Positions 4,604-31,168 of a stretch of 39,448 nucleotides of DNA are shown here, piece by piece. Below the pieces are notes generated by a model that saw only the letters and a program-made list of their open reading frames with translations, had not been told where the DNA came from and made no database searches. Origin of the DNA: an uncultured Clostridia bacterium. Its GTDB lineage: Bacteria; Bacillota; Clostridia; Oscillospirales; Acutalibacteraceae. The position numbers and the translations under genes are program-made. The DNA is taken from NCBI GenBank assembly GCA_947628665.1, contig CANRAU010000018.1:1-39448 (forward strand), given 5' to 3'. Numbering within the stretch: position 1 is the first letter of the stretch; every line of letters begins with the position of its first letter.

Positions 4604-4643
4604 CCGTCTTTCCGTGATACCGCTTTCGGGTATCGTTCCTTTC
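4604..4643 (-). promoter_or_regulatory. SD-hairpin leader of the parB-like gene
   Basis: On the mRNA, GAAAGGAAC is followed by GATACC (plus 4629-4634), a 7-base CGAAAGC loop, and GGTATC (plus 4616-4621). Then come ACGGAAAGACGG and the ATG. It is the simplest member of the family of seven leaders described in the findings. Confidence 0.6.
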
Positions 4644-4721
4644 TCCGATGATGGGCAGGAACAGCTTCCCGTCACGGACTCTCCGTTCAAAAAACCGCCC
4701 GTCGGCTTGTCCTGTGACACA

Positions 4722-4751
4722 AGGATAGCACGGTCGGGCGGGATTTGTAAA
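4722..4751 (-). promoter_or_regulatory. Probable promoter of the parB-like gene
   Basis: Minus-strand TTTACA (4746-4751) and TATCCT (4722-4727) are separated by 18 bases. They sit directly after the rsmG terminator, so the gene is probably a separate transcript with a leader of about 110 bases. Confidence 0.55.
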
Positions 4752-4792
4752 GAAAAACCGTTCGCCCAAAAAGGCGGCGTTTTGGCGGTTTT
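4752..4792 (-). terminator. Terminator of the mnmG-rsmG transcript
   Basis: On the minus strand AAAACCG pairs with CGGTTTT around an inner GCC/GGC-rich helix, followed by a T-rich tract. It starts shortly after the rsmG stop codon. Confidence 0.65.
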
Positions 4793-4797
4793 CCCTT

Positions 4798-5514
4798 TTA
4801 TTTTAATGGATTTTTGGCGATTTTTGCTGAGGGACGCGGATATTTTGGCGGGGTTTGCGATATTTTCCGCACCGTAACGATGCGTCTGGGCATATTTTTT
4901 GCCAAATCGAACAGAAAATCGGACTCGACTTGGCCGCCGAGCAGGTGTATCGCCCCGCGCGCCTTGTCGATCTCTTCCTCGGCGGCGGCGGATTTCATGG
5001 CGAGGAACGCGCCGCCTTGCTTTACAAAGGGCAGGCAGTATTCCGACAAAACGGGCAGTGCGGCAACGGCGCGTGCAGTCGCAAAATCAAAGCGTTCCCG
5101 AAATTGCGCGTCCTGCCCCGCCTCCTCGGCGCGCGCGTGTACGGTCTCGCCCGTCAGCGAAACCGCCGCAAGCACGTTTTCAATAAAGCCGAGCTTCTTT
5201 TTGGTGCTGTCCAAAAACGTAACGGAAAGGTCGGGGCGCACGAGCTTTAATACAAGCCCCGGGAAGCCCGCGCCCGTGCCGACGTCGATAACCGACGCGT
5301 TTTGCGGAAATTCGACATAGGAAAACAGGGAGAGGCAGTCCGCAAAATGCTTGATGGTGACCTCGTCCGGCTCTGTAACGGCGGTCAGATTAAACTGTCG
5401 GTTCGTCTCGGCAAGCAGGTCGGCGTATCGGTCGAGCCGCGCAAGGGCGTCGTCGGGAAAGCGAAGCTCCAAAGCGCAAAGTGTATCCAAAAGCAACGCA
5501 CGGTTCAGCGGCAT
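4798..5514 (-). CDS. rsmG: 16S rRNA (guanine527-N7)-methyltransferase RsmG
   Basis: A 238-residue class I SAM-dependent methyltransferase that modifies G527 (E. coli numbering) of 16S rRNA. The SAM-binding loop VIDVGTGAGFPGLVLKL is plain near residue 70. FLDSTKKKLGFIENV follows (motif II), and FDFATARAVAALPVL is the family-typical catalytic core. The extra C-terminal tail KISQTPPKYPRPSAKIAKNP is the usual basic RsmG end. I use the ATG whose last bases overlap the mnmG stop (ATGTGATG junction), with AAGGAGG inside the mnmG end at 7-base spacing. A GTG one codon earlier is also possible. Translation is probably coupled to mnmG. Confidence 0.95.
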   Translation of the reverse strand: MPLNRALLLDTLCALELRFPDDALARLDRYADLLAETNRQFNLTAVTEPDEVTIKHFADCLSLFSYVEFPQNASVIDVGTGAGFPGLVLKLVRPDLSVTFLDSTKKKLGFIENVLAAVSLTGETVHARAEEAGQDAQFRERFDFATARAVAALPVLSEYCLPFVKQGGAFLAMKSAAAEEEIDKARGAIHLLGGQVESDFLFDLAKNMPRRIVTVRKISQTPPKYPRPSAKIAKNPLK

Positions 5515-7385
5515 CACATCCCCTCCTTTGCGAGATAGACGAGCAGCACCGAAATGTCCGCAGGGGACACGCCGCTGATGCGCGACGCCTGCCCGACGCT
5601 CTGCGGGCGAATTTTGCCGAGCTTTTCGCGCGCTTCGAGCCGCAGCCCTTCGATTTGGTCATACCGAAGCGTTTCGGGAAGCCGCTTGTTCTCCAAACGG
5701 CGCATTTCGTGGATCTGCGCCTGCTGGCGGCGGATATAGCCGTCGTATTTCAATTCGATCTCGACCTGCTCAAAAATCTCCGACGGCCAATCGGGACGCG
5801 TCGAGTCAAAAGGCGCAAGCGCCGCATAGTCGATTTGCGGACGCTTGAGCAGTTCCGCAAGCTTCACGCCGTTTTTGAGCGGCGATGTTTCACGTGAAAC
5901 CAAAAGCGCCTGCAAGGCATCGGTCAGCGGGATCGTGGTCTCCTCCGCGCGGCGGCGTTCGGCGGCGATTTGCGCGGTTTTCTCTTGGAATCGGGCATAA
6001 CGCGCCTCCGAAATGAGGCCGATCTCGTACCCGAGCGGCGTTAAGCGCAGATCGGCGTTGTCCTGCCGAAGCAGTAAGCGGTATTCCGAACGCGAGGTCA
6101 TCATGCGGTACGGGTCGGAACAGCCCTTGGTCACAAGGTCGTCGATCAGCGTGCCGATATAGGAGGATGCACGGTCTAAAATGAACGCAGGCTTACCCTG
6201 CACCTTGCGCGCGGCGTTGATCCCCGCAATCAGCCCCTGCGCGGCGGCTTCTTCATAGCCCGAAGAACCGTTGAACTGCCCCGCGCCAAACAAGCCGTCG
6301 AAATCCAAGAATTCCAAAGACGCTTTGAGCGCGAGCGGATCAACGCAGTCATACTCAATGGCATACGCCGTGCGCATGATCTCGACGTGTTCGAGACCCT
6401 CTATCGTGCGCAAAAATTGTAGCTGCACGCTTTCGGGCAGGGACGAGGACATCCCCTGCAAATACATTTCCTCGGTGTCCAGGCCGCACGGCTCCAAAAA
6501 CAGCAGGTGGCGGGTCTTATCGGGAAAGCGCATGATCTTGTCTTCAAAGCTCGGGCAATAGCGCGGCCCGACGCCGTGAATTTTGCCGCTGTACAGCGGG
6601 GAAGTGTGGATATTCTCCAAAATCACGCGTTTGGTGTCCGCATTGGTATAGGTGATGTAGCAATCCGCTTTGTTTTCGGGCGGATCGGCCGTTTCAAACG
6701 AAAAAGGCACGGGGTGCTCGTCGCCCTTTTGCACCTCCAGCGTTGAAAAGTCCACACTGCGGCGGTTGACGCGCGCGGGTGTGCCGGTTTTGAAGCGACG
6801 CAACGGAATTTGTAGGCGTTTGAGCGCTTCCGACAATGCGGTCGCGGGAAACATCCCGTCCGGCCCGCTCGCATACGAAACGTCGCCGACATACACCCGT
6901 CCGCCTAAGAATGTGCCTGTCGCGAGGATGACGCACGGCACGGTATAGATCGCGCCCATTTGCGTCGTCAACTGCCAAAGTCCCTGCTCGTTCCGGCAGA
7001 GATCGACGACTTCCGCCTGTTTGACGTCCAGATTCGACTGCTGTTCGAGGGTGTGTTTCATCACCTTGGCGTATTCGCGGCGGTCGATCTGCGCGCGCAG
7101 GGAATGCACCGCAGGCCCTTTGCCGCGATTGAGCATGCGCGACTGGATCTGCGTTTTGTCCGCCGCCCTGCCCATTTCGCCGCCGAGCGCGTCGATCTCG
7201 CGCACCAAATGCCCCTTAGACGTCCCGCCGATGGAGGGGTTGCACGGCATATTGCCGATCCAATCGAGCTGTACGGTAAACACGACGACCGAACAGCCCA
7301 GCCGCGCGGCGGCAAGGCTCGCTTCAATGCCGGCGTGTCCCGCGCCGATCACCGCAACATCATATTGTTTTGCGAAATACTCCAT
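5514..7385 (-). CDS. mnmG: tRNA uridine-5-carboxymethylaminomethyl modification enzyme MnmG (GidA)
   Basis: A 623-residue FAD protein that works with MnmE to place the (carboxymethyl)aminomethyl group on wobble U34 of tRNAs. The N-terminal Rossmann motif VIGAGHAGIEASLAAARLG lies at about residues 10-28. The signatures MPCNPSIGGTSKGHLVREID and RMLNRGKGPAVHSLRAQIDR follow, and the C-terminal helical MnmE/tRNA-binding domain ends in VYLAKEGM. The length equals the family norm when started at MEYFAKQYD (7385). An in-frame ATG 11 codons earlier falls inside the structured leader. It overlaps rsmG and follows mnmE by 97 bases, so the two partner enzymes are co-transcribed. A parS site is embedded in its coding sequence near the codons for LLVSRETS. 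Confidence 0.96.
   Translation of the reverse strand: MEYFAKQYDVAVIGAGHAGIEASLAAARLGCSVVVFTVQLDWIGNMPCNPSIGGTSKGHLVREIDALGGEMGRAADKTQIQSRMLNRGKGPAVHSLRAQIDRREYAKVMKHTLEQQSNLDVKQAEVVDLCRNEQGLWQLTTQMGAIYTVPCVILATGTFLGGRVYVGDVSYASGPDGMFPATALSEALKRLQIPLRRFKTGTPARVNRRSVDFSTLEVQKGDEHPVPFSFETADPPENKADCYITYTNADTKRVILENIHTSPLYSGKIHGVGPRYCPSFEDKIMRFPDKTRHLLFLEPCGLDTEEMYLQGMSSSLPESVQLQFLRTIEGLEHVEIMRTAYAIEYDCVDPLALKASLEFLDFDGLFGAGQFNGSSGYEEAAAQGLIAGINAARKVQGKPAFILDRASSYIGTLIDDLVTKGCSDPYRMMTSRSEYRLLLRQDNADLRLTPLGYEIGLISEARYARFQEKTAQIAAERRRAEETTIPLTDALQALLVSRETSPLKNGVKLAELLKRPQIDYAALAPFDSTRPDWPSEIFEQVEIELKYDGYIRRQQAQIHEMRRLENKRLPETLRYDQIEGLRLEAREKLGKIRPQSVGQASRISGVSPADISVLLVYLAKEGM
5886..5901. promoter_or_regulatory. 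parS centromere-like site 2, inside mnmG
   Basis: TGTTTCACGTGAAACC is identical to site 1, including the single departure from consensus. It is read through by the mnmG codons for VSRET. Two copies 2.4 kb apart within 9 kb of the origin are good evidence of a real ParB-parS system. Confidence 0.9.
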
Positions 7386-7454
7386 ATCAATGCCGTCCGA
7401 TACGTTTTTGCACATCATGTCTAAAAGCGTTTGCGTGCCGTACCGTTTCCTCTC
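7386..7454 (-). promoter_or_regulatory. SD-hairpin leader of mnmG
   Basis: GAGAGGAAA precedes CGGTACG (plus 7439-7445), which can pair with CGTATCG (plus 7398-7404) through one G-U wobble. An inner GCAC/GTGC stem lies at plus 7435-7438 and 7410-7413. GACGGCATTGAT then leads to the ATG. The closing stem differs in sequence from the GATACC/GGTATC form but keeps pairing. Confidence 0.5.
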
Positions 7455-7481
7455 TTTTTCTATGCGATACCGTGCTTGTCC

Positions 7482-8843
7482 TTATTTGCCCACGCAAAAT
7501 CGGGAAAAAATTTCATTGACGACCGATTCCGTGGCGCGCGCACCCGTAAGCGTATCCAAATCCTCAATCGCCGCGTCGATGCTGACGTTTACCGCATCGC
7601 GCGTCAACCCGCCGTCCAGCGCGGCCTTTGCCTCCTGCAAATTTTGCAGCGCCGCACGACAGCAGGCAAGCTGGCGTTCGTTCATCAGCGTTGCGGCGGA
7701 CGGGTCAAAGTCCGCCGTTCCCAAAATATCGGCAATCGCCGTTTCCAAAGCGTCCAAGCCTGTCCGCGCCTTGGCGGAAACGCATACCACATGGGAAAAC
7801 GCCGCGTCGAGCGCGGCTTTGCCGAACGCCTGCGGCAAATCGCTTTTGTTGAGCAGGGCAACGGCTTTTTTGCCCTTGCAAAGCGCGATTAAGGCTTCAT
7901 CCTCTTGTGTAAGCGGAACGGAGGCGTCGAAAACCGCCAAAATCAGCGCCGCGCGTTCGATTTTTTTCCGTGCGCGCGCCACGCCGATGCGCTCTACCGA
8001 ATCGGTCGTTTCGCGAAGCCCCGCCGTATCCGAAAGCCGCAGTGTAATGCCGCCCACATTTGCCGTTTCCTCTACGACGTCGCGGGTCGTCCCCGCAATT
8101 TCGGTCACAATGGATTTTTCCGTTCCTGTCAAAAGATTCATCAGCGTGGATTTCCCGACGTTCGGCTTGCCGACGATGGCGGTATCCACGCCCTCCAGCA
8201 CCGCGCGGCCGCTGTCAAAGCGCGAAATGAGCTGTTCCAATGCGGCGGTTGAGCCATCGAGCGTTTTTGCAATGGTTTCGTCCGACAAATCCTCGATCTC
8301 CTCATCGGGGTAATCCACCCATGCCGCCAGCGCGGCGGAAACCGCTTTCAGGTTTGCGGAAATTTCGGCGATCCTTTGGGATAGGAGCCCGTCGAGCGCG
8401 CCGAGTGCGGCAAGGCTTGCCTGCTCGCCCTGCGCACCGATCAGCTGCATCACGGCCTCGGCCTCGGTCAAATCCAATTTTCCATTTAAAAAGGCGCGTT
8501 TGGTGAATTCCCCCGCCTCTGCCGGGACTGCGCCGCTTTGCAATACGGCGCGCAGCACCTGCCTTGTCACAAACAGCCCGCCGTGGCAGGAAAGCTCCAC
8601 GACGTCCTCGCCCGTATAGCTTTTCGGCGCGCGGAAAACCGTGGCGATGGCCTCGTCAACCGCGACGTCCCCCGCCATGACCGTGCCGAGCGCCGCGCGA
8701 TAGCCGCCGAGCGTTTGCAGAGATTTGCCCGAATGGGCGCGGAAAACCGCATCGGCAATCGGCAGGGCGTTCTCGCCCGATATGCGCACGATGCCGATGC
8801 CCCCTGCCGCTTGGCCTGTGGATATTGCCGCGATGGTAGACAT
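7482..8843 (-). CDS. mnmE: tRNA modification GTPase MnmE (TrmE)
   Basis: A 453-residue potassium-activated GTPase, partner of MnmG in U34 modification. The N-terminal folate-binding domain (residues 1-120) contains GIGIVRISG and the SYTGEDVVELSCHGG motif. The inserted G domain shows GKPNVGKST (G1), AGTTRD (G2), DTAGLRET (G3) and NKSD (G4). The C-terminal FCVGK motif is intact. I start at MSTIAAIS (8843), preceded by AAGGAGGAAACT. The frame is open for 41 more codons upstream, but these are low-complexity and lie past the jag terminator. A promoter for mnmE-mnmG-rsmG should lie within the 113 bases upstream, but I see no clear one. Confidence 0.96.
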   Translation of the reverse strand: MSTIAAISTGQAAGGIGIVRISGENALPIADAVFRAHSGKSLQTLGGYRAALGTVMAGDVAVDEAIATVFRAPKSYTGEDVVELSCHGGLFVTRQVLRAVLQSGAVPAEAGEFTKRAFLNGKLDLTEAEAVMQLIGAQGEQASLAALGALDGLLSQRIAEISANLKAVSAALAAWVDYPDEEIEDLSDETIAKTLDGSTAALEQLISRFDSGRAVLEGVDTAIVGKPNVGKSTLMNLLTGTEKSIVTEIAGTTRDVVEETANVGGITLRLSDTAGLRETTDSVERIGVARARKKIERAALILAVFDASVPLTQEDEALIALCKGKKAVALLNKSDLPQAFGKAALDAAFSHVVCVSAKARTGLDALETAIADILGTADFDPSAATLMNERQLACCRAALQNLQEAKAALDGGLTRDAVNVSIDAAIEDLDTLTGARATESVVNEIFSRFCVGK

Positions 8844-8956
8844 AGTTTCCTCCTTGCCGCGCTTTCCGATCTTGCCGCGCTTTTCGTATGCGGCCGAAGC
8901 CGACCGCGCCGCTGTTTGGTTTTGCTGTATTTCCTTTGCCTGCGCGGCGGCCGTTT

Positions 8957-8991
8957 GAAAAAACAAGGCGAGGAATGCTCCCCGCCTTGTT
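8957..8991 (-). terminator. Terminator after jag
   Basis: AACAAGGCG (8962-8970) and CGCCTTGTT (8983-8991) form a stem. On the minus strand it is followed by a run of Ts. It ends four bases from the jag stop codon and closes the rpmH-rnpA-yidD-yidC-jag transcript. Confidence 0.85.
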
Positions 8992-8994
8992 CCT

Positions 8995-10038
8995 TTATTC
9001 CTCCGTCGTTTCGGGTGCGTCCTTTTTCACTTCGATCTTGCCGTAACGGGAAACGCCTGCGGCGTCGCTGTGCTTTTCGCGATCCGCCGGAATTTCGGGC
9101 ACATACGGCTCGCGCTTCGGACGGTCATGACGGTCGCGTCTGTCCCCGCGATGGTAATCGTTCTTTGGGGGACGTGCATTTTTCGGCGCGCCCTCGGGCG
9201 CTATGATTACGCGGCGGCCGAAATCGACGCCCGTCGAATAGGAAACCACGCCTTCCACTTCCTGAATGGCCGTGTGGATGATGCGGCGTTCAAACGGATT
9301 CATCGGTTCGAGCGCGATGCTGCGCCCCGTGCGCAGTACCTTGGCGGCGTTGCGCTTCGCAAGCCCAACGAGCGCCGCTTCGCGCTTTTCGCGGTAATTG
9401 CCGACGTTGATCGACACGCGCTTATAGCTTTGATTCGCGTGGCTTTCGACCGTGCGCGCAAGATATTGGATGGCGTCGAGCGTCTCGCCGCGGCGGCCGA
9501 TCACAATGCCGTAATCCTCGCCGCATTCCAGCTCAAACAAAACCTCTTCTTCGTTATCAAACGCGTGCACCGTGCAGGTCTCTACGCCGAGCGCCTTCAC
9601 AATGGACACGATATACTGCGCCGTCGCCTCGTGCGCGTCAGACGGGTGCAGATCCGCCTTTCTCGGTGCGGGCGTCGGTTCGTCGTCCTTTTTCGCCGGT
9701 TCGCCGTGCGGATTTTGCGCGTCATGCATGGGCTTCCCGGGTTTTCTGTCCGCCTTTTGCGCGGGTTTTGCGGGGGCTTTCCCCTCTTGCGGCGCCTTCG
9801 CAGGGCGTGGCGGCCGCTCTTTTTTCGGCGCGGGCGCTTTCTTCTCTGCGGGATTGGGCACCTCTACGGACACCTTGACCTGTGCGTCCGAACCGCCGAA
9901 CAGACCGAGTACCTTTTTCGTCGGCATTTTCAGAACTTCATAATGAAAATCGTCATCCTCCGTAAGTCCGAGCTGCTGCAAGGCGGCGGTTTTCGCCTCT
10001 TCTATGGTTTTGGCGGTACAAATGGTCTCTTTTAACAT
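8995..10038 (-). CDS. jag: Jag/KhpB RNA-binding protein (Jag_N, KH and R3H domains)
   Basis: A 347-residue cytoplasmic RNA-binding protein, known in Firmicutes as Jag, EloR or KhpB, that acts with KhpA in control of cell elongation. The Jag_N domain covers about residues 1-65 and includes KKVLGLFGG. A long Pro/Lys/Ala-rich linker covers about 70-150. The KH-II domain has the IGRRGETLDAIQYL loop. The R3H domain contains RRIIH within NPFERRIIHTAIQEV. The C-terminal tail is basic and repetitive (RGDRRDRHDRPKREP). The start MLKETICTAK (10038) matches family N-termini. The frame runs upstream into the hairpin leader. It follows yidC, the standard Firmicutes arrangement. The linker is longer than in many homologues. 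Confidence 0.92.
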   Translation of the reverse strand: MLKETICTAKTIEEAKTAALQQLGLTEDDDFHYEVLKMPTKKVLGLFGGSDAQVKVSVEVPNPAEKKAPAPKKERPPRPAKAPQEGKAPAKPAQKADRKPGKPMHDAQNPHGEPAKKDDEPTPAPRKADLHPSDAHEATAQYIVSIVKALGVETCTVHAFDNEEEVLFELECGEDYGIVIGRRGETLDAIQYLARTVESHANQSYKRVSINVGNYREKREAALVGLAKRNAAKVLRTGRSIALEPMNPFERRIIHTAIQEVEGVVSYSTGVDFGRRVIIAPEGAPKNARPPKNDYHRGDRRDRHDRPKREPYVPEIPADREKHSDAAGVSRYGKIEVKKDAPETTEE

Positions 10039-10115
10039 AGTTTTCACCGTGCGATACGCCGTTTGCACGAACGGAAAGTTCTGGATTCCGTTTGTGCGCG
10101 GTATCGCTCCTTTCT
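10039..10115 (-). promoter_or_regulatory. SD-hairpin leader of jag
   Basis: AGAAAGGA is followed by GCGATAC (plus 10101-10107), which pairs perfectly with GTATCGC (plus 10051-10057). Inside is a long second stem, plus 10086-10097 with 10065-10076, 11 of 12 paired. After the hairpin come ACGGTGAAAACT and the ATG, with GGTGA as a proximal SD. This is the most stable-looking member of the leader family. Confidence 0.65.
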
Positions 10116-10128
10116 GTTTTTCGTTCGA

Positions 10129-11097
10129 TCAAGCCTGTTCGTCTTCGTCCGCCGTGTTTTGCATCGCTTTGATCTTCTTGGTGTTTTCCTCTCTGGAACG
10201 GCGGTAGATCGTCTCGTCGATCATCACTTTGGCAAGAACCTTTTTTGGGGCGTAAATTTGGTTGAGAACGATCATTTGCACGAAGGAAAGTACCGTAGAC
10301 ATAATGGTATAAATGCCGACGCTGATGGGGAACAGGAAGGCGAAAAAGATCTGCATGGCGGGCATATACAGCGTCATACAGCCCATCATCGGATTTTTCC
10401 CCATTTCGGGATTGGTTTTTTTCTGCCGAAACTGGGAATACAGGCTCATGGCCAGCGCCAAAAGGCCGGAGACGATGGGTACGACCCAATACACGCTGAA
10501 ATCCTTGTAATTCGGGGTGACGGAAAGATCCAGCCCGAACAGAGAGAACCGCTCCATAAACAGCTCGATTTTGGCGACCATTTCCCCCGTAAGCCCCGGA
10601 ACGGTCGTGCTGCTTATGATCTCGCGGAAATGCTCGAGCGCGTACAGCTCCATACGGAAAGAGTTGTTCTGCCCCGACGTGACAAACGGCGCGGCGGCGG
10701 CTTTAAGCGCTTCCACAACGCCGGAATCGATGCGCAGCACCATGGAAAACGGGTGATAGTTCACCTGAAACAGCCCGATCATGATCGGCAGCTGGATGAG
10801 CATGGGCAGACACCCCGAGGTCATGGCGGAAGTCCCCTCGCGCTGATAGAGCGCCTGCGTCTCTTCCTGCAGTTTTGCGCGGTCATTCTTATATTTTTCC
10901 TGAATTCTTCTGAGCTTCGGCTGTAAACGCGCCTGCTTGGCCATTCCCTTTTGCTGGCTGATGGCCGAAGGAAGCAGACAGAGCCGCACGATCACGGTCA
11001 GGAAAAAAATAGAGAGCAGATAATGGCCCGTCAGCCCGTAAAACAGGGAAATGACGAACCCGAACGGGATTCCCAAGATTTCATACAGTCTTTGCAT
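10129..11097 (-). CDS. yidC: Membrane protein insertase YidC/SpoIIIJ
   Basis: A 322-residue polytopic membrane protein that inserts proteins into the cytoplasmic membrane alone or with SecYEG. The hydrophobic segment LLSIFFLTVIVRLCLLP carries the conserved groove arginine. It is followed by the cytoplasmic coiled helical hairpin QKGMAKQARLQPKLRRIQEK. Further membrane segments lie around LPMLIQLPIMIGLFQV, VYWVVPIVSGLLALAM and ILFAFLFPISVGIYTIMST-like stretches. There is no long periplasmic domain, as expected for Gram-positive YidC. The C-terminus is basic. GGAGGAACATAC precedes the ATG. It sits between yidD and jag. Confidence 0.93.
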   Translation of the reverse strand: MQRLYEILGIPFGFVISLFYGLTGHYLLSIFFLTVIVRLCLLPSAISQQKGMAKQARLQPKLRRIQEKYKNDRAKLQEETQALYQREGTSAMTSGCLPMLIQLPIMIGLFQVNYHPFSMVLRIDSGVVEALKAAAAPFVTSGQNNSFRMELYALEHFREIISSTTVPGLTGEMVAKIELFMERFSLFGLDLSVTPNYKDFSVYWVVPIVSGLLALAMSLYSQFRQKKTNPEMGKNPMMGCMTLYMPAMQIFFAFLFPISVGIYTIMSTVLSFVQMIVLNQIYAPKKVLAKVMIDETIYRRSREENTKKIKAMQNTADEDEQA

Positions 11098-11127
11098 GTA
11101 TGTTCCTCCGAAATAAGGGAGTCGCCC

Positions 11128-11361
11128 TTATTTTGTGTGATTTTCTTTCTTTTCGGGAACCGGGTCGTAGCCGCCCGGAAACAGCGGATTGCACCGCAGA
11201 AGCCGTAAAGTTCCCATAAGTCCGCCCCGCAAAACGCCGAACCGCTCAATGGCGGTCAGCATATACTGCGAACAAGTCGGATAATATCTGCACCGCGGCG
11301 GAAAAAGCGGAGAGATCTTTTGCTGATAAAATCGGATACCGCGCATCAAAAGCTCTTTCAT
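11128..11361 (-). CDS. yidD: Membrane protein insertion efficiency factor YidD
   Basis: A 77-residue protein with the complete YidD signature. It starts [20 protein letters not shown], then [21 protein letters not shown], then [20 protein letters not shown]. Members are thought to be amphipathic, membrane-associated helpers of YidC. I choose the ATG at 11361, one base after the rnpA stop codon, because homologues begin there. A GTG four codons earlier overlaps rnpA and is possible. No strong SD is visible, so translation is probably coupled to rnpA. Confidence 0.93.
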
Positions 11362-11362
11362 T

Positions 11363-11695
11363 TCAAACGGCACCCGCTTTTTTTAACATGCCGAGCATAA
11401 TTCTTTCCACATCCGTGCTTTTCAAAGCCTTGGTTCTCGCGCGCGCTACAAAGACAAAATCGTAATTACCCGAAATGCGCGGCTCTATTGCCCGATACGC
11501 GGCGCGGATGATGCGTTTACAGCGGTTGCGCTCTACGGCGTTGCCGACTTTTTTGCTCACGGTAATACCGATACGACAAATTCCCGCACGGTTTTTTTGC
11601 AAATAAACAACCAGTGCAGGATTTGTATAGGTCTTTCCGCGGTGATAGAGCCTTCGGAAATCCCCGTTTCGGTTTAGTGTAGCCGTGTTTTTCAA
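11363..11695 (-). CDS. rnpA: Ribonuclease P protein component
   Basis: A 110-residue basic protein that binds the RNase P RNA and helps process the 5' ends of tRNA precursors. The signature [18 protein letters not shown], containing the RNR motif, is present. So are the N-terminal [15 protein letters not shown] and the central ITVSKKVG strand. The start is TTG at 11695, with AAAGGG nine bases upstream. Length is normal. It lies between rpmH and yidD in the conserved operon. Confidence 0.95.
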
Positions 11696-11710
11696 AACGA
11701 ACTGCCCTTT

Positions 11711-11845
11711 TTAATAAGAAAGCTGTTTTCTACCCTTTCTTCTGCGGCGAGCAAGGACCTTTCTGCCGTTCGTGGTCGCCATTCTTTTACGGAAGCCGTG
11801 TTCCATTTTGCGATGACGCTTTTTGGGTTGATAGGTTCTTTTCAT
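11711..11845 (-). CDS. rpmH: 50S ribosomal protein L34
   Basis: A 44-residue very basic protein, [20 protein letters not shown] continuing into [20 protein letters not shown] and ending QLSY, which is full-length L34. GGAGGTGGAAGC precedes the ATG. It is the first gene of the leftward rpmH-rnpA-yidD-yidC-jag transcript and faces dnaA across the presumptive origin, as in most bacteria. Confidence 0.97.
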
Positions 11846-11888
11846 GCTTCCACCTCCGTTTCTGTCCAAAAATGATCTGCGGAAAGTT

Positions 11889-18607: not shown

Positions 18608-18621
18608 AGCGGAAATAAAGC

Positions 18622-18697
18622 GAAAGGAAAGATACCGAACGCGAAAGCCGTCAAAAGCGGCGTTTTGGGTGCATTCTGTATCGTATGGCGGTGAATT
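18622..18697 (+). promoter_or_regulatory. SD-hairpin leader of gyrA
   Basis: CGAAAGGAAA is followed by GATAC (18631-18635), pairing with GTATC (18678-18682). The helix continues as GAA/TTC and GC/GC with single mismatches. An inner AAAGCCG/CGGCgTTT hairpin sits inside. GTATGGCGGTGAATT then leads to the ATG, with GGTGA as a proximal SD. Confidence 0.6.
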
Positions 18698-21229
18698 ATG
18701 AAAAAACAGCAAAATGAGCATCAAGCGGAATACATTCCGTTTGATCAGCAAAAAATCATCAATGTAGAGATCAATCGGGAAATGCGCAAATCCTTTTTGG
18801 ATTATTCCATGTCGGTCATCATTTCCCGCGCCCTGCCGGATGTGCGCGACGGCTTAAAGCCCGTGCATCGGCGCATTCTCTACACCATGTTTGAAAAAAA
18901 TCTGTACCCCGAAAAGGCGTACAGAAAGTGCGCCGATACCGTCGGTTCGGTGCTGGGGCGGTATCATCCCCACGGCGACGCGTCCGTTTACGACGCCATG
19001 GTGCGTTTGGCGCAGAGCTTTTCCATGCGCTATATGCTCGTGGACGGACACGGCAACTTCGGTTCGGTGGACGGCGACCCGCCCGCCGCTTATCGATATA
19101 CCGAGTCGAGAATGAGCAAAATCTCCATGGAGATGCTCACCAATATCGACAAAGATACCGTCGATTTCATGCCGAACTACGACAACCGCTTAAAAGAACC
19201 GACCGTTTTGCCGTCGCGTTTCCCGAATTTGCTGGTCAACGGCTCTACGGGCATTGCGGTGGGCATGGCGACCAACATTCCGCCGCACAATATGGGCGAG
19301 GTGATCGACGGCATCACCGCGCTCATCGACAATCCCGAGCTTTCGCTTGAGGAACTCATGGAGCATATCAAAGGTCCGGATTTCCCCACGGCGGGCATCA
19401 TTATGGGACGTGCGGGCATCCGTGCGGCGTATGCCACGGGGCGCGGCAAGATCCTCCTGCGCGCGCGTGCCGAAATTGTCGAAAACGAGAAAAACGGACG
19501 TTTTTCCATTGTCGTAACGGAATTGCCGTATCAGGTCAACAAGGCGCGGCTCATCGAATCCATTGCAGATCTCGTCAAGGAAAAGCGCGTCGAGGGCATT
19601 GCGGTCATCAACGACTATTCCAGCCGCGAGGGCATGCGCATGGTCATCGACTTAAAGCGCGACGCGAACCCGCAGGTGGTGCTCAACACCCTGTACCAGT
19701 ACACGCAGCTGCAAATTTCCTACGGCATTATTCAGCTCGCCATTGTGAACGGCGAGCCGAAGGTTCTCACGCTCAAGGAGATTTTGGAAAATTACATCCG
19801 CTTCCAGTGCGAGGTCATTACGCGCAGAACGCAGTACGATCTCAAAAAGGCGCAGGACAGAGAGCATATTTTGGAAGGGCTTGCGCGCGCCATTGACATT
19901 GTGGACGACATTATCGCGACGATTCGCGCCTGCAAGGGCGGCATTCCCGAAGCCAAAGCCGCCATTATGGAAAAATTCGACTTTGACGATGTGCAGGCGG
20001 CAGCGATCGTGGCGTACCGCATCGGGCAACTGGCGGGACTGGAGATCAAAAAGATTTTGGAAGAGCGCGACGAGCTGCTTCGCAAAATCCAAGAATATTT
20101 GGAAATTCTCGGCTCCGAAGCGCGTATTCTTACCATTGTAAAAGACGAATTGACCGCCATCGGCCAAAAATTTGCGGACGAACGCCGCACCGAGATCGTC
20201 AGCGTCAGCGGCGAGGTGGATATCGAGGATCTCATTCCCGAAGAGACCTGCGTATACACGATGACCGAAATGGGCTATATCAAACGCCAGCCCGCCGACG
20301 TTTACCAGGCACAGCGGCGCGGCGGCAAGGGCATTCGCGGCATGACCCGCCGCGAGGAGGACGTCGCCGAAACAATGTTCACGGCCTCTTCCCACGCGTA
20401 TATTATGTTCTTTACCTCCCTTGGGCGCGCCTACCGCTTAAAGGGCTATGAAATTCCCGAGGGAAGCCGTTCGAGCAAGGGCATGAACATCGTAAACCTT
20501 CTCCCGCTTTCGGCGGACGAAAAGGTGACGGCCATGCTGTGCGTACCCGATTTCGGAGAATCGCAGGCGTATTTGTGTATGCTCACGAAAAACGGCGTGA
20601 TCAAGCGCACGGAGCTGGACGCATACAGAAACATCCGCAAGAGCGGCATTACCGCCATTCATTTGGACGAAGGCGACGAGCTCGGCTGGGTCAAGCTGAC
20701 CGACGGCAGCCGCGATCTGCTCGTCGCGACCAAAAAGGGCATGTGCATTGCGTTCAATGAACAGGACGCGCGCTCCATCGGCCGTACCGCGCGCGGCGTG
20801 AAGGCCATTACGCTCGGCGCGGGCGACTTTGTTACGGGTATGTGCGTGCTTGACCCGCAAAAGAAGGTGTTGACCGTGTCCGAAACAGGCTACGGCAGAC
20901 GCTCCGACTGCGGGAATTACCGCATACAGTCCCGCGGCGGCAAGGGGCTTGTCAATTACCATACCGCGCAGTACGGTGACGTTGCCGCCGTTGCCATGGT
21001 AGACGAAGACGAGGACGTCATCCTGATCTCCTCCGACGGCATCATTATCCGCATTTCCGCCGGAGACGTCAGCGAATTTGCCCGTCCCTCCAAGGGCGTG
21101 CGCGTCATGCGCATTTCCGAGGGCGAGAAGATCATGACGCTTTCCGTGACAGAACCCGCGCCCGCCGAGCCGCAGAACGCGGACAACGATGAAAAAGACG
21201 CGGAGAACGCGGAAACCACAGAAAGTTAG
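18698..21229 (+). CDS. gyrA: DNA gyrase subunit A
   Basis: An 843-residue breakage-reunion subunit. The winged-helix region has [18 protein letters not shown], and the catalytic tyrosine is in AAYRYTE (about Tyr134). The gyrase-specific GyrA box QRRGGKG in [14 protein letters not shown] identifies it as GyrA, not ParC. The beta-pinwheel continues to [15 protein letters not shown], followed by a short Asp/Glu/Asn-rich tail. At the position of E. coli Ser83 it has Ala (Ala95 here), followed by Ser. It is co-transcribed with gyrB through a hairpin leader. Confidence 0.97.
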
Positions 21230-23321: not shown

Positions 23322-23343
23322 AATCCAAAAAGGAGAGAAAAAC

Positions 23344-24153: not shown

Positions 24154-24158
24154 AGAGG

Positions 24159-24193
24159 GACGGGTGATCAGACAAGATCACCCGTCTTTTTTT
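24159..24193 (+). terminator. Terminator after mrp
   Basis: GACGGGTGATC (24159-24169) pairs perfectly with GATCACCCGTC (24176-24186) across a 6-base loop, followed by seven Ts. It starts five bases past the mrp stop codon. Confidence 0.95.
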
Positions 24194-24219
24194 CCGCACT
24201 TTCCAAAAAAGCCAAAGCG

Positions 24220-24794
24220 AAGTTTTCGCCCGCCTTTTTCAAAAGGCGGTGAGGTGTCGGAGCGAAGCTCTGACTCGCCCCTCGCAAGGGGCGAAACACT
24301 TAAAGCGTCAGCGAAGCGCAGGAGGGGAAGAAAAACGTCCCGGTGGGACGTTTTTCGCGGGGATTCTCGCCTGCTGGCTCGGTCGGCGCTTTTGCGCCCA
24401 TGGCGCAAAGGTCGCCACTGGCGACCCGCGTTCTCGCCTGCCGGCTCGGTCGGCGAGATATGGCACGGCGCAAGACGTGACGAAGGGAGAGAAAAATCGA
24501 AAATCTCTCCCTCAGTCGCCTACGGCGTCAGCCCCCTCGTCAGAGGGGGCAACTTGCTTACACAACTTTCTGCGAAAAAATTTACTCTATAAAAACAGAA
24601 ATTCTCTGCCAAATGCGCCGCTGTGCGGCGCATCGGGAAACCCCTTGATAGGGTTTCCCACGGCAAAACAGTCCACCGGACTGTTTTGCCTACCTTCCTG
24701 ATCTCGCTGACGCTTTGGAATTTCGCGTCCTGCGGGACGCGAGGAGGGCGTTGCCCTCCACCCACCGCCTTTTGAAAAAGGCGGGCGAAAACTT
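24220..24794. mobile_element. Hairpin-array element with perfect 32-bp terminal inverted repeats (MITE-like)
   Basis: The ends 24220-24251 and 24763-24794 are perfect inverted copies over 32 bases, starting AAGTTTTCGCCCGCC. Each is itself a CCGCCTTTT/AAAAGGCGG hairpin. Between them are serial palindromes with mostly 3-4 base loops: 24276-24293, 24331-24355 (11-bp stem), 24385-24398, 24410-24426, 24433-24457, 24485-24511, 24517-24527, 24531-24550, 24613-24633, 24635-24659, 24662-24690 (13-bp stem), 24723-24742 and 24743-24759. Stem sequences are unrelated to each other. There is no transposase and no obvious target-site duplication. The terminal repeat also occurs alone at 3450 and at both window ends, so this may be a composite of smaller repeats rather than one transposed unit. 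Confidence 0.6.
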
Positions 24795-24892
24795 TAATGA
24801 ATGGGCGGCGAAAAGCGAGCGAAAACCTTTGCTTGGCTTTGCGAGAGCGCGTGAAAAACGGCGAAAAGTAGGTTCGATAAGCAAATAATACA

Positions 24893-24923
24893 AAAACACC
24901 TGTGCGCGGCATGGGTGTTTTTT
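24893..24923. terminator. Terminator-like hairpin upstream of guaB
   Basis: AAACACC and GGTGTTT form a stem around a 13-base loop, with A-rich and T-rich flanks on both sides. It could insulate the guaB promoter from read-through across the hairpin array. Confidence 0.55.
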
Positions 24924-24935
24924 CCTAAATATGTA

Positions 24936-26463
<1,528 letters not shown>

Positions 26464-26480
26464 GGGATAATCGAAAAGAG

Positions 26481-26520
26481 AAGAAAGGATCTCGAGCGAC
26501 GCTCGAAACAGGTGAACAAT
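26481..26520 (+). promoter_or_regulatory. SD-hairpin leader of glyA
   Basis: AAGAAAGGA is followed by a short perfect hairpin TCGAGC-gac-GCTCGA (26492-26506). Then comes AACAGGTGAACAAT before the ATG, where AGGTGA is a proximal SD. It lacks the GATACC sequence but has the same order of parts as the other leaders. Confidence 0.45.
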
Positions 26521-27774
26521 ATGTACGCAGATTTAATGGATACCATAGGGTTTGTAGCCGGATATGACCCCGAAGTTGGCGAGGCCATGGCCGCCGAGCT
26601 TGCCCGTCAGCAGAGAAATCTGGAGCTGATCGCCAGCGAAAACATCGTTTCCCCCGCCGTTATGGCGGCTATGGGCAGTGTGCTGACCAACAAGTACGCC
26701 GAAGGTTATTCGGGCAAACGCTATTACGGCGGCTGTGAATGCGTGGACGTGGTCGAGGATATCGCCTGTCGGCGCGCGACCGAGCTGTTCGGCGCGAAGT
26801 TTGCCAATGTGCAGCCCCATTCGGGCGCGCAGGCCAATATGGCGGTGTATTTTGCGCTTTTGCAGCCGGGCGACACGGTCATGGGCATGAATCTTGCCGA
26901 GGGCGGTCATTTGACGCACGGCTCGCCCGTGAATATGTCGGGCAAATATTTCCATTTTGTGCCTTACGGCGTGAACGCCGACGGCTATATCGATTATGAC
27001 GAATTCGAGAAAACGGCCAAAGCCTGCTCGCCGAAGCTCATCGTGGCGGGCGCGTCGGCCTATCCGCGCATCATTGATTTTGCGCGCATTTCCGAGATCG
27101 CAAAGTCGGTCGGCGCATACCTCATGGTGGATATGGCGCATATCGCGGGTCTGGTCGCGGCGGGGCTGCACCCCTCGCCCGTCGGCTATGCCGACGTGGT
27201 CACGACCACCACGCACAAAACCCTGCGCGGCCCGCGCGGCGGCCTGATCCTTACCAACGACGAGGATTTGGCAAAGGCCATCAACAAGGCCATTTTCCCC
27301 GGCACGCAGGGCGGCCCGCTCATGCACATCATTGCGGGTAAGGCGGTTTGCTTCGGCGAAGCGCTCTCCCCCGCGTTCAAGGACTATCAGCAGCGCGTGA
27401 TCGACAACTGTCAGGCGCTGGCAAAGGGACTGCTTTCGCGCGGGATCGATCTGGTCTCGGGCGGCAGCGACAACCATTTGCTTTTGGTCGATCTGCGCTC
27501 TGCGGGCATTACGGGCAAGGATCTGGAGCACAGACTCGACGAAGTGTATATCACCGCGAACAAAAACGCCATCCCGAACGACCCGCAGAAGCCTTTTGTG
27601 ACCAGCGGCGTGCGGCTCGGCACACCTGCGGTGACCACACGCGGCCTTGACTGTGCCGATATGGATAAGGTCGCGGAATATATCGCGCTTGCGGCGACCG
27701 ATTTCGATGCCAAGGCGGATTATATTCGCGAGGGCGTCAACGAAATTTGCGCAAGACACCCGTTATATCGCTGA
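26521..27774 (+). CDS. glyA: Serine hydroxymethyltransferase
   Basis: A 417-residue PLP enzyme that interconverts serine and glycine and charges tetrahydrofolate with a one-carbon unit. [20 protein letters not shown] and [17 protein letters not shown] are the N-terminal signatures. [18 protein letters not shown] precedes the PLP-lysine motif [14 protein letters not shown] (Lys233). I choose ATG 26521 because AGGTGA sits five bases upstream. A GTG three codons earlier is possible. It follows guaB by about 60 bases, linking purine and one-carbon supply. Confidence 0.96.
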
Positions 27775-27808
27775 AATCAGCGTAGAATCGGAAGGGACGG
27801 CGGCGGCT

Positions 27809-28345
27809 TTGAGAGATGTCATTTTAGCAAGTCAAAATCCGCAGGCCGCCGACCGTATTCGCGCGGTCTTACAAAGCGGACAGATTTTTGTCGCCGATGT
27901 GTACCGCTCGGGAGCGGAGGTGCTTTCGTTTGCGAGCATCCGTCCCGACGCGGTGGTCATTTGCGGCAGAATGCCCGATATGACGGCGGCGACGCTTGCC
28001 GACACGCTCCCGAACGGCTTTGATGTGATTTGGCTGATGCCGTCGGGCGCGGCGGAATCCGGCTACAGGAGCAATTTGATCGCTTTGCATATGCCGCTCA
28101 ACCGCATGGAGCTTTTGGACACCGTGCGTATGCTTGCCGCCGCAGAGAGCGAGCGGCTCAGTCCGCGCAAGGCGCGCAGCGCCGAGACGGAAGCGGTTTT
28201 GCAGAAGGCGAAGGCGGCGCTTATGGCGCGGTATTCCCTCTCGGAACGGGAAGCGCACAAGCTGCTGCAGCGCCGTGCCATGGGTACGGGGCAAAAGCTC
28301 TTGCAAGCGGCGCAGGCCGTTCTGCGGGAAACAGGCTCCGAATAG
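27809..28345 (+). CDS. ANTAR-domain regulator with degenerate receiver domain
   Basis: A 178-residue two-domain protein. Residues 1-110 follow the receiver fold (RDVILASQNPQAADRIRAVL, then DAVVICGRMPDMTAA), but the phospho-acceptor Asp position is Cys52. The acidic pair is AlaSerGln, and the Lys of KPF is Met. Residues about 115-175 are an ANTAR helix bundle: AETEAVLQKAKAALMARYSL, then SEREAHKLLQRRAMGTGQKL. ANTAR proteins bind paired hairpins in nascent RNA and prevent termination, usually when phosphorylated. This one cannot be phosphorylated in the usual way. I take TTG 27809, with GAAGGGA 11 bases upstream. A longer frame lies inside glyA. Its target RNAs are unknown. Confidence 0.8.
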   Translation: MRDVILASQNPQAADRIRAVLQSGQIFVADVYRSGAEVLSFASIRPDAVVICGRMPDMTAATLADTLPNGFDVIWLMPSGAAESGYRSNLIALHMPLNRMELLDTVRMLAAAESERLSPRKARSAETEAVLQKAKAALMARYSLSEREAHKLLQRRAMGTGQKLLQAAQAVLRETGSE

Positions 28346-28378
28346 TTAATTCTTATCTACAGCAAAATCATGGCTTTC

Positions 28379-28396
28379 CCCGTCTCGATAGACGGG
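28379..28396 (+). terminator. Hairpin after the ANTAR gene
   Basis: CCCGTCT-cgat-AGACGGG is a perfect 7-bp stem in the 139-base gap before dapF. A loose T-rich tract (CCGTTTTTCGG) follows 10 bases later. It could be a weak terminator or an RNA landmark. Further partly paired GGCGT/ACGCC sequence follows before the dapF ribosome site. Confidence 0.4.
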
Positions 28397-28484
28397 CGTG
28401 CTTCCGTTTTTCGGCGGAGACGGCGTTTTCCCGTTAAGACGCCGAACGGCGGCGCGGTACGCCTTAGGAATAGGAGGGAATCGT

Positions 28485-29321
28485 ATGCGTTTTACCAAAA
28501 TGCAGGGCGCGGGCAACGACTATATCTATGTCAACTGTCTGGAGGAAACCGTCAATGACCCAAAAGCGGCCGCGATCAAGGTCAGCGACCGTCATTTCGG
28601 GATCGGCGCGGATGGGCTGGTGCTGATCTGTCCTTCCGAAAAGGCGGATTTCTTTATGGATATGTACAACGCGGACGGCTCGCGCGGCAAAATGTGCGGC
28701 AACGCGGTGCGCTGTGTGGCAAAATATGTGTATGACCGCGGCCTTGTACACCGTGATGAGATCGCAATCGAAACGCTCAGCGGCATCAAGACCATTCAGG
28801 TGCGCGTCGAGGGCGGCAAAGTAGTCGCCGCACGCGTCAATATGGGCGCGCCCGTCTTAAACGCACGCGATATTCCCACCGCGTTTGAGGGGGAAACCGT
28901 GGTTAGTCAAAAACTGACTATCGGAGAAGAGACCCACACCGTGACCTGTGTTTCCATGGGCAATCCGCACTGCGTTGTGTTCGTACAAGACCCGAATGCG
29001 TTGGAGCTTCCTAAAATCGGGCCTGCGTTTGAACGGCATCCGATGTTTCCCGACCGCATCAACACGGAGTTTGTGCATGTGATCAGCCCCACGCATTTGG
29101 AAATGCGCGTTTGGGAGCGCGGCTCGGGCGAGACGCTTGCCTGCGGCACGGGCGCGTGCGCATCGGTCGTAGCGGCGACGCTCAACGGCTTTTGCAGGCG
29201 CGGGGAAACGGTTCGCGTCCGGCTGCGCGGCGGTGAGCTGCAGATCCAATGGGCTGCGGACGGCGACGTGTATATGACAGGCCCTGCCGCAGAGATCTGC
29301 ACGGGGGAGATTGAGGTATAA
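28485..29321 (+). CDS. dapF: Diaminopimelate epimerase
   Basis: A 278-residue PLP-independent epimerase converting LL- to meso-diaminopimelate for lysine and peptidoglycan. It begins [18 protein letters not shown]. The two catalytic cysteines are in [10 protein letters not shown] (Cys71) and [11 protein letters not shown] (Cys220). [11 protein letters not shown] and GNPHCVVFV are further family motifs. Length is normal. GGAGGGAATCGT precedes the ATG. It pairs with the next gene, dapL, to supply the late steps of the pathway. Confidence 0.97.
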
Positions 29322-29464
29322 CAGCGGGGGCGCGCAGAAACGCGAAATGTCGAAAGTCCCCGAACGTCTCAAAAAACGCAAATGGTTCATTTTTATCTAT
29401 CGCGCAAATGCGGGCAGTCCCGTTATGGAGCAGGCGGCGCTTTGCGAAACATTGCGAAATAACA
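29322..29464. other. dapF-dapL gap, upstream part
   Basis: About 140 bases that look neither coding nor strongly structured. I see no clear promoter or terminator. A frame running through to the dapL start exists but has no recognisable protein character. Confidence 0.4.
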
Positions 29465-29542
29465 GAAGAAAGGAACGGTATTGCGCACTACGCCACCCGA
29501 AACGGTGTTTTGCAATTCAATCAGTACCGAAGAAAGGCGCAT
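29465..29542 (+). promoter_or_regulatory. SD-hairpin leader of dapL
   Basis: GAAGAAAGGAA is followed by CGGTA (29476-29480), pairing with TACCG (29525-29529). TTGC (29481-29484) pairs with GCAA (29512-29515), and CACC (29494-29497) with GGTG (29504-29507). AAGAAAGGCGCAT follows before the ATG, giving a second, good SD. The closing stem sequence differs from GATACC/GGTATC but preserves pairing. Confidence 0.45.
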
Positions 29543-30757
29543 ATGCAAATCAACGAAAACTTTTTGAAAATCCAAAGCAGCTATTTGTTTTCCAACATTG
29601 CGAAAAAGGTCAACGCCTACAGCGCGGCGCATCCCGACAAGGAGATCATCCGTTTGGGGATCGGCGACGTGACCCGTCCGCTTGCGCCCGCCTGCATAAA
29701 GGCCATGCATGACGCCGTGGAAGAAATGGCGCATGCCGAGACCTTCCACGGCTATCCGCCCGAGTACGGGCAGGATTTTCTGCTGGAGGCGATTTTGGAA
29801 AACGATTACCGCGCGCGCGGCGTCGATCTCCAAAAAAGCGAAATTTTTGTTTCGGACGGCGCAAAATCCGACTGCGGCAACATCGGCGATATTTTCTCGC
29901 TGGAGAACCGCGTTGCCGTCTGCGATCCCGTTTACCCCGTTTACGTGGACACCAACGTCATGGCGGGGCGCGCGGGCGACAAAACCGAAAACGGCTGGAG
30001 CAACATAATCTATATGCCCTGCACGGCGGAAAATCATTTCCTGCCCGAAATTCCGACGGAACACGTCGATTTGATTTATCTTTGTTTCCCCAACAATCCC
30101 ACGGGGATGCCGATCAAAAAGGCGGAACTGCAAAAATGGGTCGATTATGCCAACCGCGAGGGCGCGGTCATTCTGTATGACGCGGCGTATGAGGCGTTTA
30201 TCACCGAGGCGGATGTGCCGCATTCGATTTTTGAGCTGGATGGCGCAAAGCAATGCGCCATCGAATTCCGCAGCTTTTCCAAAACGGCGGGCTTTACGGG
30301 CGTGCGCTGCGGTTATACGGTCGTGCCGCACGATTTGAAATTCGGCGAGACCGAGCTCAACGCTTTGTGGGCGCGCCGGCAGGCGACCAAGTTCAACGGC
30401 GTTTCCTACATCACCCAGCGCGCGGCGGCGGCCTGCTATACGCCCGAGGGCAAACAGCAAATTCGCGACACCATCGCGTATTATCAAAACAATGCGCGCG
30501 TCATTTACGAGGGACTTCGCGACTGCGGCTTTACCGTGTACGGCGGCACGAATTCGCCGTATGTGTGGCTGAAAACCCCCGACAATATGGGCAGTTGGGC
30601 ATTTTTTGACCTGCTTTTGGAAAAAATACAGGTCGTGGGTACGCCCGGGGAGGGCTTCGGCCCGTCGGGCGAAGGATATTTCCGTCTGACGGCGTTCGGC
30701 TCGGCGGAAAACACGGTTCGCGCCGTGGAACGCATCAAGGCGTACTTCGGCAAATAA
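29543..30757 (+). CDS. dapL: LL-diaminopimelate aminotransferase
   Basis: A 404-residue class I/II PLP aminotransferase that makes LL-diaminopimelate directly from tetrahydrodipicolinate, bypassing the succinyl or acetyl route. It begins [20 protein letters not shown] with [36 protein letters not shown] and [11 protein letters not shown] lead to the PLP lysine in [15 protein letters not shown] (Lys247). The GxPxxVW-like [10 protein letters not shown] and the C-terminal [14 protein letters not shown] are typical. A start at ATG 29543 gives the usual length. The frame runs 45 codons further upstream without homologous content. Confidence 0.96.
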
Positions 30758-30781
30758 ATAGCCTTTTTGGAGGGCAATACG

Positions 30782-31069
30782 ATGCAGATAGACAAAGATT
30801 TGGTGATGTATCTCGAAAAGCTCGGCCGCATCGAGCTTTCCGAAGCACAGAGAGCGGCGACCGAAAAGGATTTGCAGGATATTCTCACCTACATCGACAC
30901 GCTCAACGAGCTGGATACCGACGGCGTTGAACCCGCTTCGCACTCTTTCCCCATTGCGAACGTCATGCGCGAGGACGAGGTCACCAACACCGCAAGGCCC
31001 GAGGCGATCCTGCAAAACGCGCCCAACAGCCGCGACGGGTGCTTTGTCGTGCCGAAAACGGTCGAATAA
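30782..31069 (+). CDS. gatC: Asp/Glu-tRNA amidotransferase subunit C
   Basis: A 95-residue GatC, MQIDKDLVMYLEKLGRIELS with LTYIDTLNELDTDGVEPASH, which wraps GatA and GatB. GGAGGGCAATACG precedes ATG 30782. An in-frame TTG five codons earlier lies at the SD. It is the first gene of gatCAB, implying that Gln-tRNA and/or Asn-tRNA are made indirectly by transamidation. Confidence 0.95.
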   Translation: MQIDKDLVMYLEKLGRIELSEAQRAATEKDLQDILTYIDTLNELDTDGVEPASHSFPIANVMREDEVTNTARPEAILQNAPNSRDGCFVVPKTVE

Positions 31070-31098
31070 GCAGAAGCAGGCAAAGGCAAAAATATAAC

Positions 31099-31168
31099 GA
31101 AAGGAACGATACCCGCAAAAACGCCGGACAGCGGCGTTTGGGTTACGAGGTATCGCAGGCGTAGAATT
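31099..31168 (+). promoter_or_regulatory. SD-hairpin leader of gatA
   Basis: CGAAAGGAA is followed by CGATACC (31107-31113), pairing perfectly with GGTATCG (31149-31155). Inside, AAACGCC (31119-31125) pairs with GGCGTTT (31133-31139). CAGGCGTAGAATT then leads to the ATG. It is a clean two-stem example of the leader family. Confidence 0.65.

Follow-up and report, generated by a model that had tools for sequence, protein, structure and literature searches.

What recurs in front of seven genes on one contig of an uncultured Acutalibacteraceae bacterium, and how could ribosomes start translation behind it? The stretch analysed, hereafter the window, is the whole of contig CANRAU010000018.1 (39,448 nt; assembly GCA_947628665.1), which is contig C18 of a 2.0 Mb genome in 35 contigs. 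An earlier note on this DNA had described a shared leader upstream of parB, mnmG, jag, gyrA, glyA, dapL and gatA, in which a first Shine-Dalgarno (SD)-like word (SD1) is followed by a hairpin, a second SD-like word (SD2) and the start codon. These layouts were confirmed for all seven genes (Table 1). The note recognised a recurring leader and missed what comparison with empty sites in relatives shows, namely that a dispersed insertion of ~90 nt, lying in the sense orientation directly before the start codon, has given rise to the leaders. Genomes are labelled with G-numbers (G000 is the genome of the window) and loci with L-numbers; gene names come from reading translations, and gene calls from our own script.

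Dispersed insertions directly before start codons

Insertion is most clearly seen at three genes for which relatives retain the empty site. In pgsA of G304, 88 nt lie exactly between ...GGAGAAGTGGT and the ATG; the same place in nine relatives is an overlap of rimO with pgsA that reads GGAGAAGTTGT-ATG or a near variant, and the insert supplies a new rimO stop codon. In yaaA of G302, 94 nt separate GGTAAGGATGAATTGA from the ATG, and the empty site reads GGTAAGGATGAACTGAAA-ATG in G303, with similar sequences in G316 and G330. In jag of G317, which carries another copy than that of the window, 93 nt follow AAGAGGAAACATC, and the empty site in G316 is AAGAGGAAACAGAAAG-ATG, the first part of the protein being 95% identical between the two genomes. 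Relative to these empty sites, insertion was precise to the base at pgsA and to within a few bases at yaaA and jag, with the native SDs kept upstream of all three inserts. No terminal inverted repeats or target-site duplication were evident by eye at the empty sites, and the 5′ boundary was fuzzy. An apgM-like gene of G304, where a native-looking GGCGGAG remains upstream of the element, and gyrA (G000 compared with G328) are otherwise alike but have less exact ends.

Within the genus, the window-type leader is absent from 20 orthologues of gyrA (including that of G328), 15 of jag, 14 of mnmG and 14 of parB, while the gatA orthologue of G315 has a plain AAGGAGG leader and no element. Among sister genomes, yaaA is preceded by a full copy in G302, a decayed one in G317 and none in G303, G316 and G330. 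The decayed copy (L292, ~5755-5818) has an altered SD1 and a shortened 3′ end.

The pattern AAAGGA-N0-6-GATACC, shared by the parB, jag, gyrA and gatA leaders, occurs four times in the window (0.02 expected) and 17 times in the genome, against a single match to the reversed pattern. Fourteen of the 17 directly precede a gene start, and the matches at L003, L009 and L012 look accidental. The closing stem by itself, as GATACC-N4-34-GGTATC, is a weak signal, with two matches in the window, one of them within gyrA.

Covariance model R1 was built from 16 leaders of G000 (alignment A2), six of them from the window, and these 16 match it by construction. It gave 28 matches in G000 (weakest E = 0.76, with matches requested up to E = 10), and the 12 outside the model all end on a gene start codon; the genes behind them include hisS, aroB, truA, xseB, folE, dxr and a DegV-like gene. 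Model R2 comprised 57 rows, among them the R1 matches and 27 family loci. Since R1 and R2 both contain the start codon, a third model, R3, was built without it; R3 also leaves out SD1, and omits the mnmG, parB and dapL leaders. In 979 kb, R3 found 24 matches (E ≤ 2), and all 18 with E ≤ 0.02 lie at gene starts, one of them being the decayed copy that ends at the yaaA start of G317. The six weaker matches comprise three known leaders, one antisense to a known palindrome, one within recF of G331 and one in G334. Among the 48 R3 matches in 44 loci picked around known copies, two weak ones lay off starts (L258, E = 0.06; L267, antisense, E = 0.28).

The collected set contains 151 copies from 29 genomes (42 from G080, 29 from G000, 16 from G289, nine from G304 and the rest from 25 others); it omits R2 matches for which no locus was fetched, and two initially unlabelled copies belong to G315 and G318. 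Every one of the 151 ends, in sense, at an ATG (147) or GTG (4) that opens a reading frame, six of these frames being shorter than 80 codons, and the information content falls sharply directly after the start codon. A random placing relative to starts, which the earlier note had named as speaking against its proposal, is thus not what R3 and the collected copies show. SD-like words are found 14-38 nt before SD1 in 28 of the 151 copies, compared with 8 and 6 in two control windows. At L198 (G080:C2:42571-42746), two copies stand in tandem, the first preceding a 31-codon frame that is among the six short ones; their distance of 92 nt gives the length of the unit.

The seven leaders of the window belong to this element to different degrees. 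Those of parB, jag, gyrA and gatA share the same pattern, and the mnmG leader was found by R3, which had been built without it (E = 0.011). R3 did not match the parB and dapL leaders. The dapL leader fits the element and is matched by R1 and R2, but both contain it, so that it is counted as a member by inspection and by models of which it is part. The glyA leader, matched by none of the covariance models, has the same layout with another hairpin. For mnmG, the conserved N-terminus places the start at the ATG at 7385-7383, a correction to the earlier annotation; the start of the longer open reading frame, at 7418, falls within the hairpin. SD2 is mostly weaker than SD1, as had been reported, except before dapL, where a strong second SD (AAGAAAGG) stands close to the ATG; this is the sole window leader without GG 7-9 nt before the start.

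As the earlier note had proposed checking, covariance models do find further copies before genes in relatives. Searches of more than 40 genomes scored 12-15 candidates per genome, and their counts are therefore lower bounds. R2 matched 29 sites in G000, 42 in G080, 19 in G289, eight in G014 and seven in G123 (E ≤ 0.5); within the genus (E ≤ 0.1), it matched 49 in G317, 24 in G316, 17 each in G302, G329 and G330, 12 in G303 and nine in G304. Own genome included, R1 had matches in 19 of 300 genomes and 15 of 135 genera of the family, and R2 in 11 of 39 genomes of the genus. Across the order, R2 matched six of 394 genomes (a set whose share from outside the family is not given), all six in the same family, and across the phylum one of 398, which is G000 itself; these two lower-bound searches gave no match beyond the family. 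Neither R1 (E ≤ 1) nor R2 (E ≤ 5) had a match in 80 mnmG loci of named Clostridia (1.47 Mb; such as Faecalispora, Anaeromassilibacillus and Ruminococcus), and among the 40 of these whose mnmG upstream regions were inspected, a look-alike was seen in L073 only. The taxa of these named loci would place the genome of the window near the Oscillospirales. Two exact patterns gave no match in viral contigs (looser patterns were not tried). The distribution of the element is patchy, within one bacterial family.

Scans without a model extend the layout somewhat further. AAAGGA and GAAAGG are enriched 30-90 nt upstream of 346 called starts (400 kb of the genome plus the window), and a layout scan of 440 kb of the same genome found 26 of 348 gene starts, against 11 for reversed upstream regions and 2.0 for shuffled ones, so that layouts lacking the conserved stem are only partly above background. 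Four leaders that the models cannot reach also have this layout, but with strong hairpins (10-15 bp) unrelated to that of the element; they precede a lysC-like, an unknown, a chorismate-mutase-like and a clpX-like gene (Table 1).

Fold and a proposed split Shine-Dalgarno sequence

The consensus within the genus is approximately (A)GTGTGAAAAATAC-nnn-GAAAGGAACGATACCG-nGCRCAAAA-(variable hairpin)-TTTTGTGC-GAATGCT-GTATCGCATGGCGATT-nnn. Covariation supports an RNA fold in which a closing stem, GATAC/GTATC, is topped by a second, variable hairpin. In the model-fitted alignment (55 distinct rows), 88.8% of cells pair (79.7 in shuffles), both partners vary somewhere in 12 of the 14 pairs, and the covariation score is 0.230 against 0.120, a value reached by none of 500 shuffles. 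Two MAFFT alignments, which are not fitted to the model, gave 0.274 against 0.193 (36 rows) and 0.210 against 0.134 (40 rows). The score thus stands above all shuffles on each of the three alignments, in agreement with the expectation of covarying pairs; on the 36-row alignment, another measure was reached by one shuffle of 500. Sliding the stem partners lowers covariation in the MAFFT alignments. The stem occurs as GATAC/GTATC, GGTAC/GTACC and GATTC/GAATC. RNAalifold on A2 alone recovers the outer stem only, at weak energy. A helix of length 6 or more forms in 129 of the 151 copies, compared with a mean of 94 when the 3′ sides are re-dealt between copies, a figure that is high because the closing stems are alike.

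On either side of this fold, two short blocks are conserved. SD1 is the best-kept block in the tabulated groups except G289, where it reads GAAGGAGG; it is exactly GAAAGGA in 109 of the 151 copies. A GG lies exactly 8 nt before the start in 99 copies and at 7-9 nt in 116, and a strong SD is present within the last 18 nt in three. Among called genes of G000, the 84 of 346 that have GGAGG or AGAGG show a peak 7-8 nt before the start. In G217, a genome with copies of the element, the 16S rRNA tail reads GGATCACCTCCTTTCT and is complementary to AGAAAGGA followed by GGTGATC; by exact pattern, the 16S 3′ end was found in one of 16 genomes queried and not in the window's own assembly. When leaders were co-folded with this tail, both pieces paired with the hairpin kept in 87 of 151 copies, against 38.7 when the 13 nt before the start were shuffled. 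SD2 alone paired in three. In three orthologous pairs with 91-94% protein identity, SD1, the closing stem and the GG are conserved, while the interior of the hairpin has been largely replaced in ricT (G304/G315) and an M16 peptidase (G123/G215) and mostly kept in uxaC (G123/G215).

SD1 and SD2 are most simply read as two halves of a single extended SD, rather than as a strong SD moved close to the start. The reading considered probable is that the dispersed element replaces the ribosome-binding site of a gene with a split SD. The insert would supply its own site, with GAAAGGA on the 5′ side of the hairpin and GG(Y)GA on the 3′ side, its GG 8 nt before the start. The 16S tail would pair with both pieces simultaneously, the hairpin staying as a side branch, so that the ribosome would meet GAAAGGA+GG-N8-AUG as a normal SD at normal spacing. 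The element could in this way land between the native SD and the start, even in housekeeping genes, without silencing them, and after insertion the split SD and the closing stem would be retained as the hairpin interior drifts. Selection against other sites may suffice to explain the placement at starts only. A bolder possibility, put forward tentatively and with considerable doubt, is a mobile ribosome-binding site. In this view an RNA element, selfish or domesticated, would target translation starts as such, perhaps by recognising either the part of the mRNA where initiation takes place or the 30S subunit engaged in it; it would enter the gap between native SD and AUG and persist by rebuilding a canonical SD split around its own hairpin. 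In the usual view, an SD is continuous and fixed to its gene; the element would give a two-part, hairpin-bridged version to unrelated genes, many of them housekeeping genes. Were this correct, pairing of the 16S tail with an SD interrupted by a helix junction would be a routine way to begin translation, and mobile DNA could occupy translation starts as a niche. Both claims can be tested with the dozens of natural variants and with the sites that are empty in sister species.

Several observations weigh against a recently gained, split ribosome-binding site. SD1 alone was used in 61 of the 151 co-folds. In the second piece, GGCGA (46) is more frequent than the pairing GGTGA (14), so that only the GG is clearly under pressure and the remainder is untuned to the tail; the copies of G289 and some of G014 have a fuller GGAGG in the first piece, meaning that the split is not always needed, and dapL has an independent second SD. 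The alignment shuffles leave the relatedness of the copies in place. A recognisable remnant of an upstream SD was present in only the 28 copies mentioned above, and neither a target-site duplication nor a transposase or a source element was found. Genes for Y1 transposases do not follow copy number, with zero in G317 (49 copies) and G330 (17). Comparable parB leaders with a different hairpin occur in G334, G323 and G322 of the same genus, and the window copy at parB may therefore be older or convergent. When relatives were screened with a loose criterion for the layout, 11 of 298 starts of orthologous genes had a similar appearance, which speaks against a simple recent gain. The same two genes in G304 and G315 carry copies with different hairpins, and some copies must accordingly predate those species.

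Alternative explanations and known systems

The earlier note had suggested that the hairpin is a folded spacer that brings the strong SD close to the start codon. Such an arrangement is described for T4 genes 25 and 38, in which an RNA hairpin that aids initiation separates the SD from the start, leaving 5 and 11 nt once the hairpin is removed (PMC3014915). If only the strong SD1 were used and the hairpin merely shortened its distance to the start, the layout would be that of the T4 genes, and SD1 would be expected among the most conserved blocks and to act by itself in co-folds, as it is and does in the proportions given above. However, because the distance from GTATC to the start is 14 nt in 10 of the 16 R1 leaders, ~16 nt would remain after hairpin removal, more than in T4; the second piece alone stands at normal spacing, and the position of the GG exactly 8 nt before the start goes unexplained. 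A folded spacer of this type is therefore regarded as unlikely. In the available text of that paper, the T4 cases are single phage genes, neither dispersed nor inserted before the starts of many genes, and a second SD piece at normal spacing is not described.

A plain miniature mobile repeat, whose hairpin serves DNA mobility only and whose SD-like words are incidental, would account for the patchy gain, the tandem pair in G080 and the decayed copy in G317. This is judged distinctly unlikely, as no significant copy was found off start codons among the 151 collected or by R3 in 979 kb, and SD1 and the GG persist in diverged orthologous copies whose hairpins have changed. That the leader controls a regulon as a regulatory RNA, with a protein or small molecule as its ligand, is improbable. 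Its conserved two-part hairpin with an internal loop, and arms that are alike within a genome but differ between genomes (G289, G014, G080) as if co-evolving with a binding protein, would fit such a role, but relatives do without the element at the same genes. The downstream genes, moreover, look unrelated and many are housekeeping genes (gyrA, topA, hisS, gatA, purD, trpB), with lipoproteins and genes of unknown function also present, which argues against a metabolite sensor. The leader may also act as a ribosome standby site. A short upstream open reading frame encoding a leader peptide coupled to the gene was rejected for want of a frame preference and has very little probability. Each of the three sense frames is open through the element in 90-100 of 151 copies, against ~39 in shuffles, and 64 have an ATG or GTG 12 nt before the start; lengths modulo 3, however, are spread over remainders 0, 2 and 1 (57, 53 and 41), and substitutions follow base pairs. 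The scarcity of stop codons in all three frames probably reflects the shared ancestry of the copies.

Rfam (release 15) gave no family match in the window at gathering level, and in seven element loci (E ≤ 0.5) the only matches were to RNase P RNA and, weakly, to RsaJ, neither of them within the element, which bears out the earlier statement that no named RNA family has this form. Miniature inverted-repeat transposable elements (MITEs) and repetitive extragenic palindromic (REP) elements are short, non-coding and hairpin-forming, and their copies are patchy. The element resembles MITEs in the precision of its insertion relative to empty sites, and showed no terminal repeats or duplication by eye; it differs from both in lying at starts in sense with an apparent ribosome-binding site of its own, and in its lack of correlation with Y1 transposase. 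Mobilisation of the REP or IS200/IS605 type was rejected on the last ground, Y1_Tnp counts being unrelated to copy number. To our knowledge, no known kind of element both inserts at start codons and brings a ribosome-binding site with it, and the element was for this reason rated a new kind, each ingredient of which has precedents. The literature search, whose coverage is incomplete and excludes most subscription journals, gave no description of a dispersed split SD.

The nearest precedents otherwise come from phages and marine bacteria. The SAS/ESAS of cluster K mycobacteriophages are a repeated SD-core sequence before many starts, around half with upstream inverted repeats (PMC3203893). They differ from the element in belonging to phage genomes and in having a 13-bp core, and the authors of that study found RNA pairing of the inverted repeats poorly supported. 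These repeats sit upstream of the SD, whereas the hairpin of the element sits inside it, and the 13-bp consensus GGGATAGGAGCCC differs from that of the copies. The TAACTGA repeats of marine Beggiatoaceae are dispersed and mostly end a few nt from starts, with no pattern of gene function (PMC4679880); unlike the element, they consist of heptamers in tandem, have little SD character and lack a conserved hairpin, and some lie elsewhere.

Other features of the window

Table 1. Leaders and other recurring features (window coordinates unless a contig of G000 is named)
Feature	Position	Strand	Description
parB leader	4604..4660	-	GAAAGGA 4643-4637; hairpin GATACC-CGAAAGC-GGTATC; GG 8 nt before ATG at 4603; in R1 by construction
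mnmG leader	7386..7457	-	GAGGAAACGGTACG...CGTATCG; GG 7 nt before ATG at 7385; R3 match
jag leader	10039..10125	-	GAAAGGAGCGATACCGCGCAC...GTATCGCACGGTGAAAACT; ATG at 10038
gyrA leader	18610..18697	+	GAAAGGAAAGATACCG...GTATCGTATGGCGGTGAATT; ATG at 18698; 5′ end of insert approximate
glyA leader	26472..26520	+	GAAAGGA; unrelated short hairpin TCGAGCG/CGCTCGA; GG 8 nt before ATG at 26521
dapL leader	29455..29542	+	GAAAGGAACGGTATTG...CAGTACCG, then strong second SD; ATG at 29543
gatA leader	31085..31168	+	GAAAGGAACGATACCC...GGTATCGCAGGCGTAGAATT; ATG at 31169
Same layout, other hairpins	G000 C1 starts 196396, 176176 (-), 258801 (-); C2 18734		Model-free scan
Second recurring sequence	1-60, 3445-3490, 24221-24253, 24760-24793, 39370-39448		By eye

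A different recurring sequence, CGCCCGCCTTTTTCAAAAGGCGG with its neighbours, accompanied by AAAACTTT, was noticed by eye in long non-coding gaps and at both contig ends, a location that suggests a second dispersed repeat at which the assembly breaks. Two GTTTCACGTGAAAC palindromes, at 3498-3511 near parB and at 5887-5900 in mnmG, resemble parS sites. An 888-amino-acid frame on the reverse strand (266-2932), in which many short repeated units were seen by eye, probably encodes a repeat-rich surface protein.

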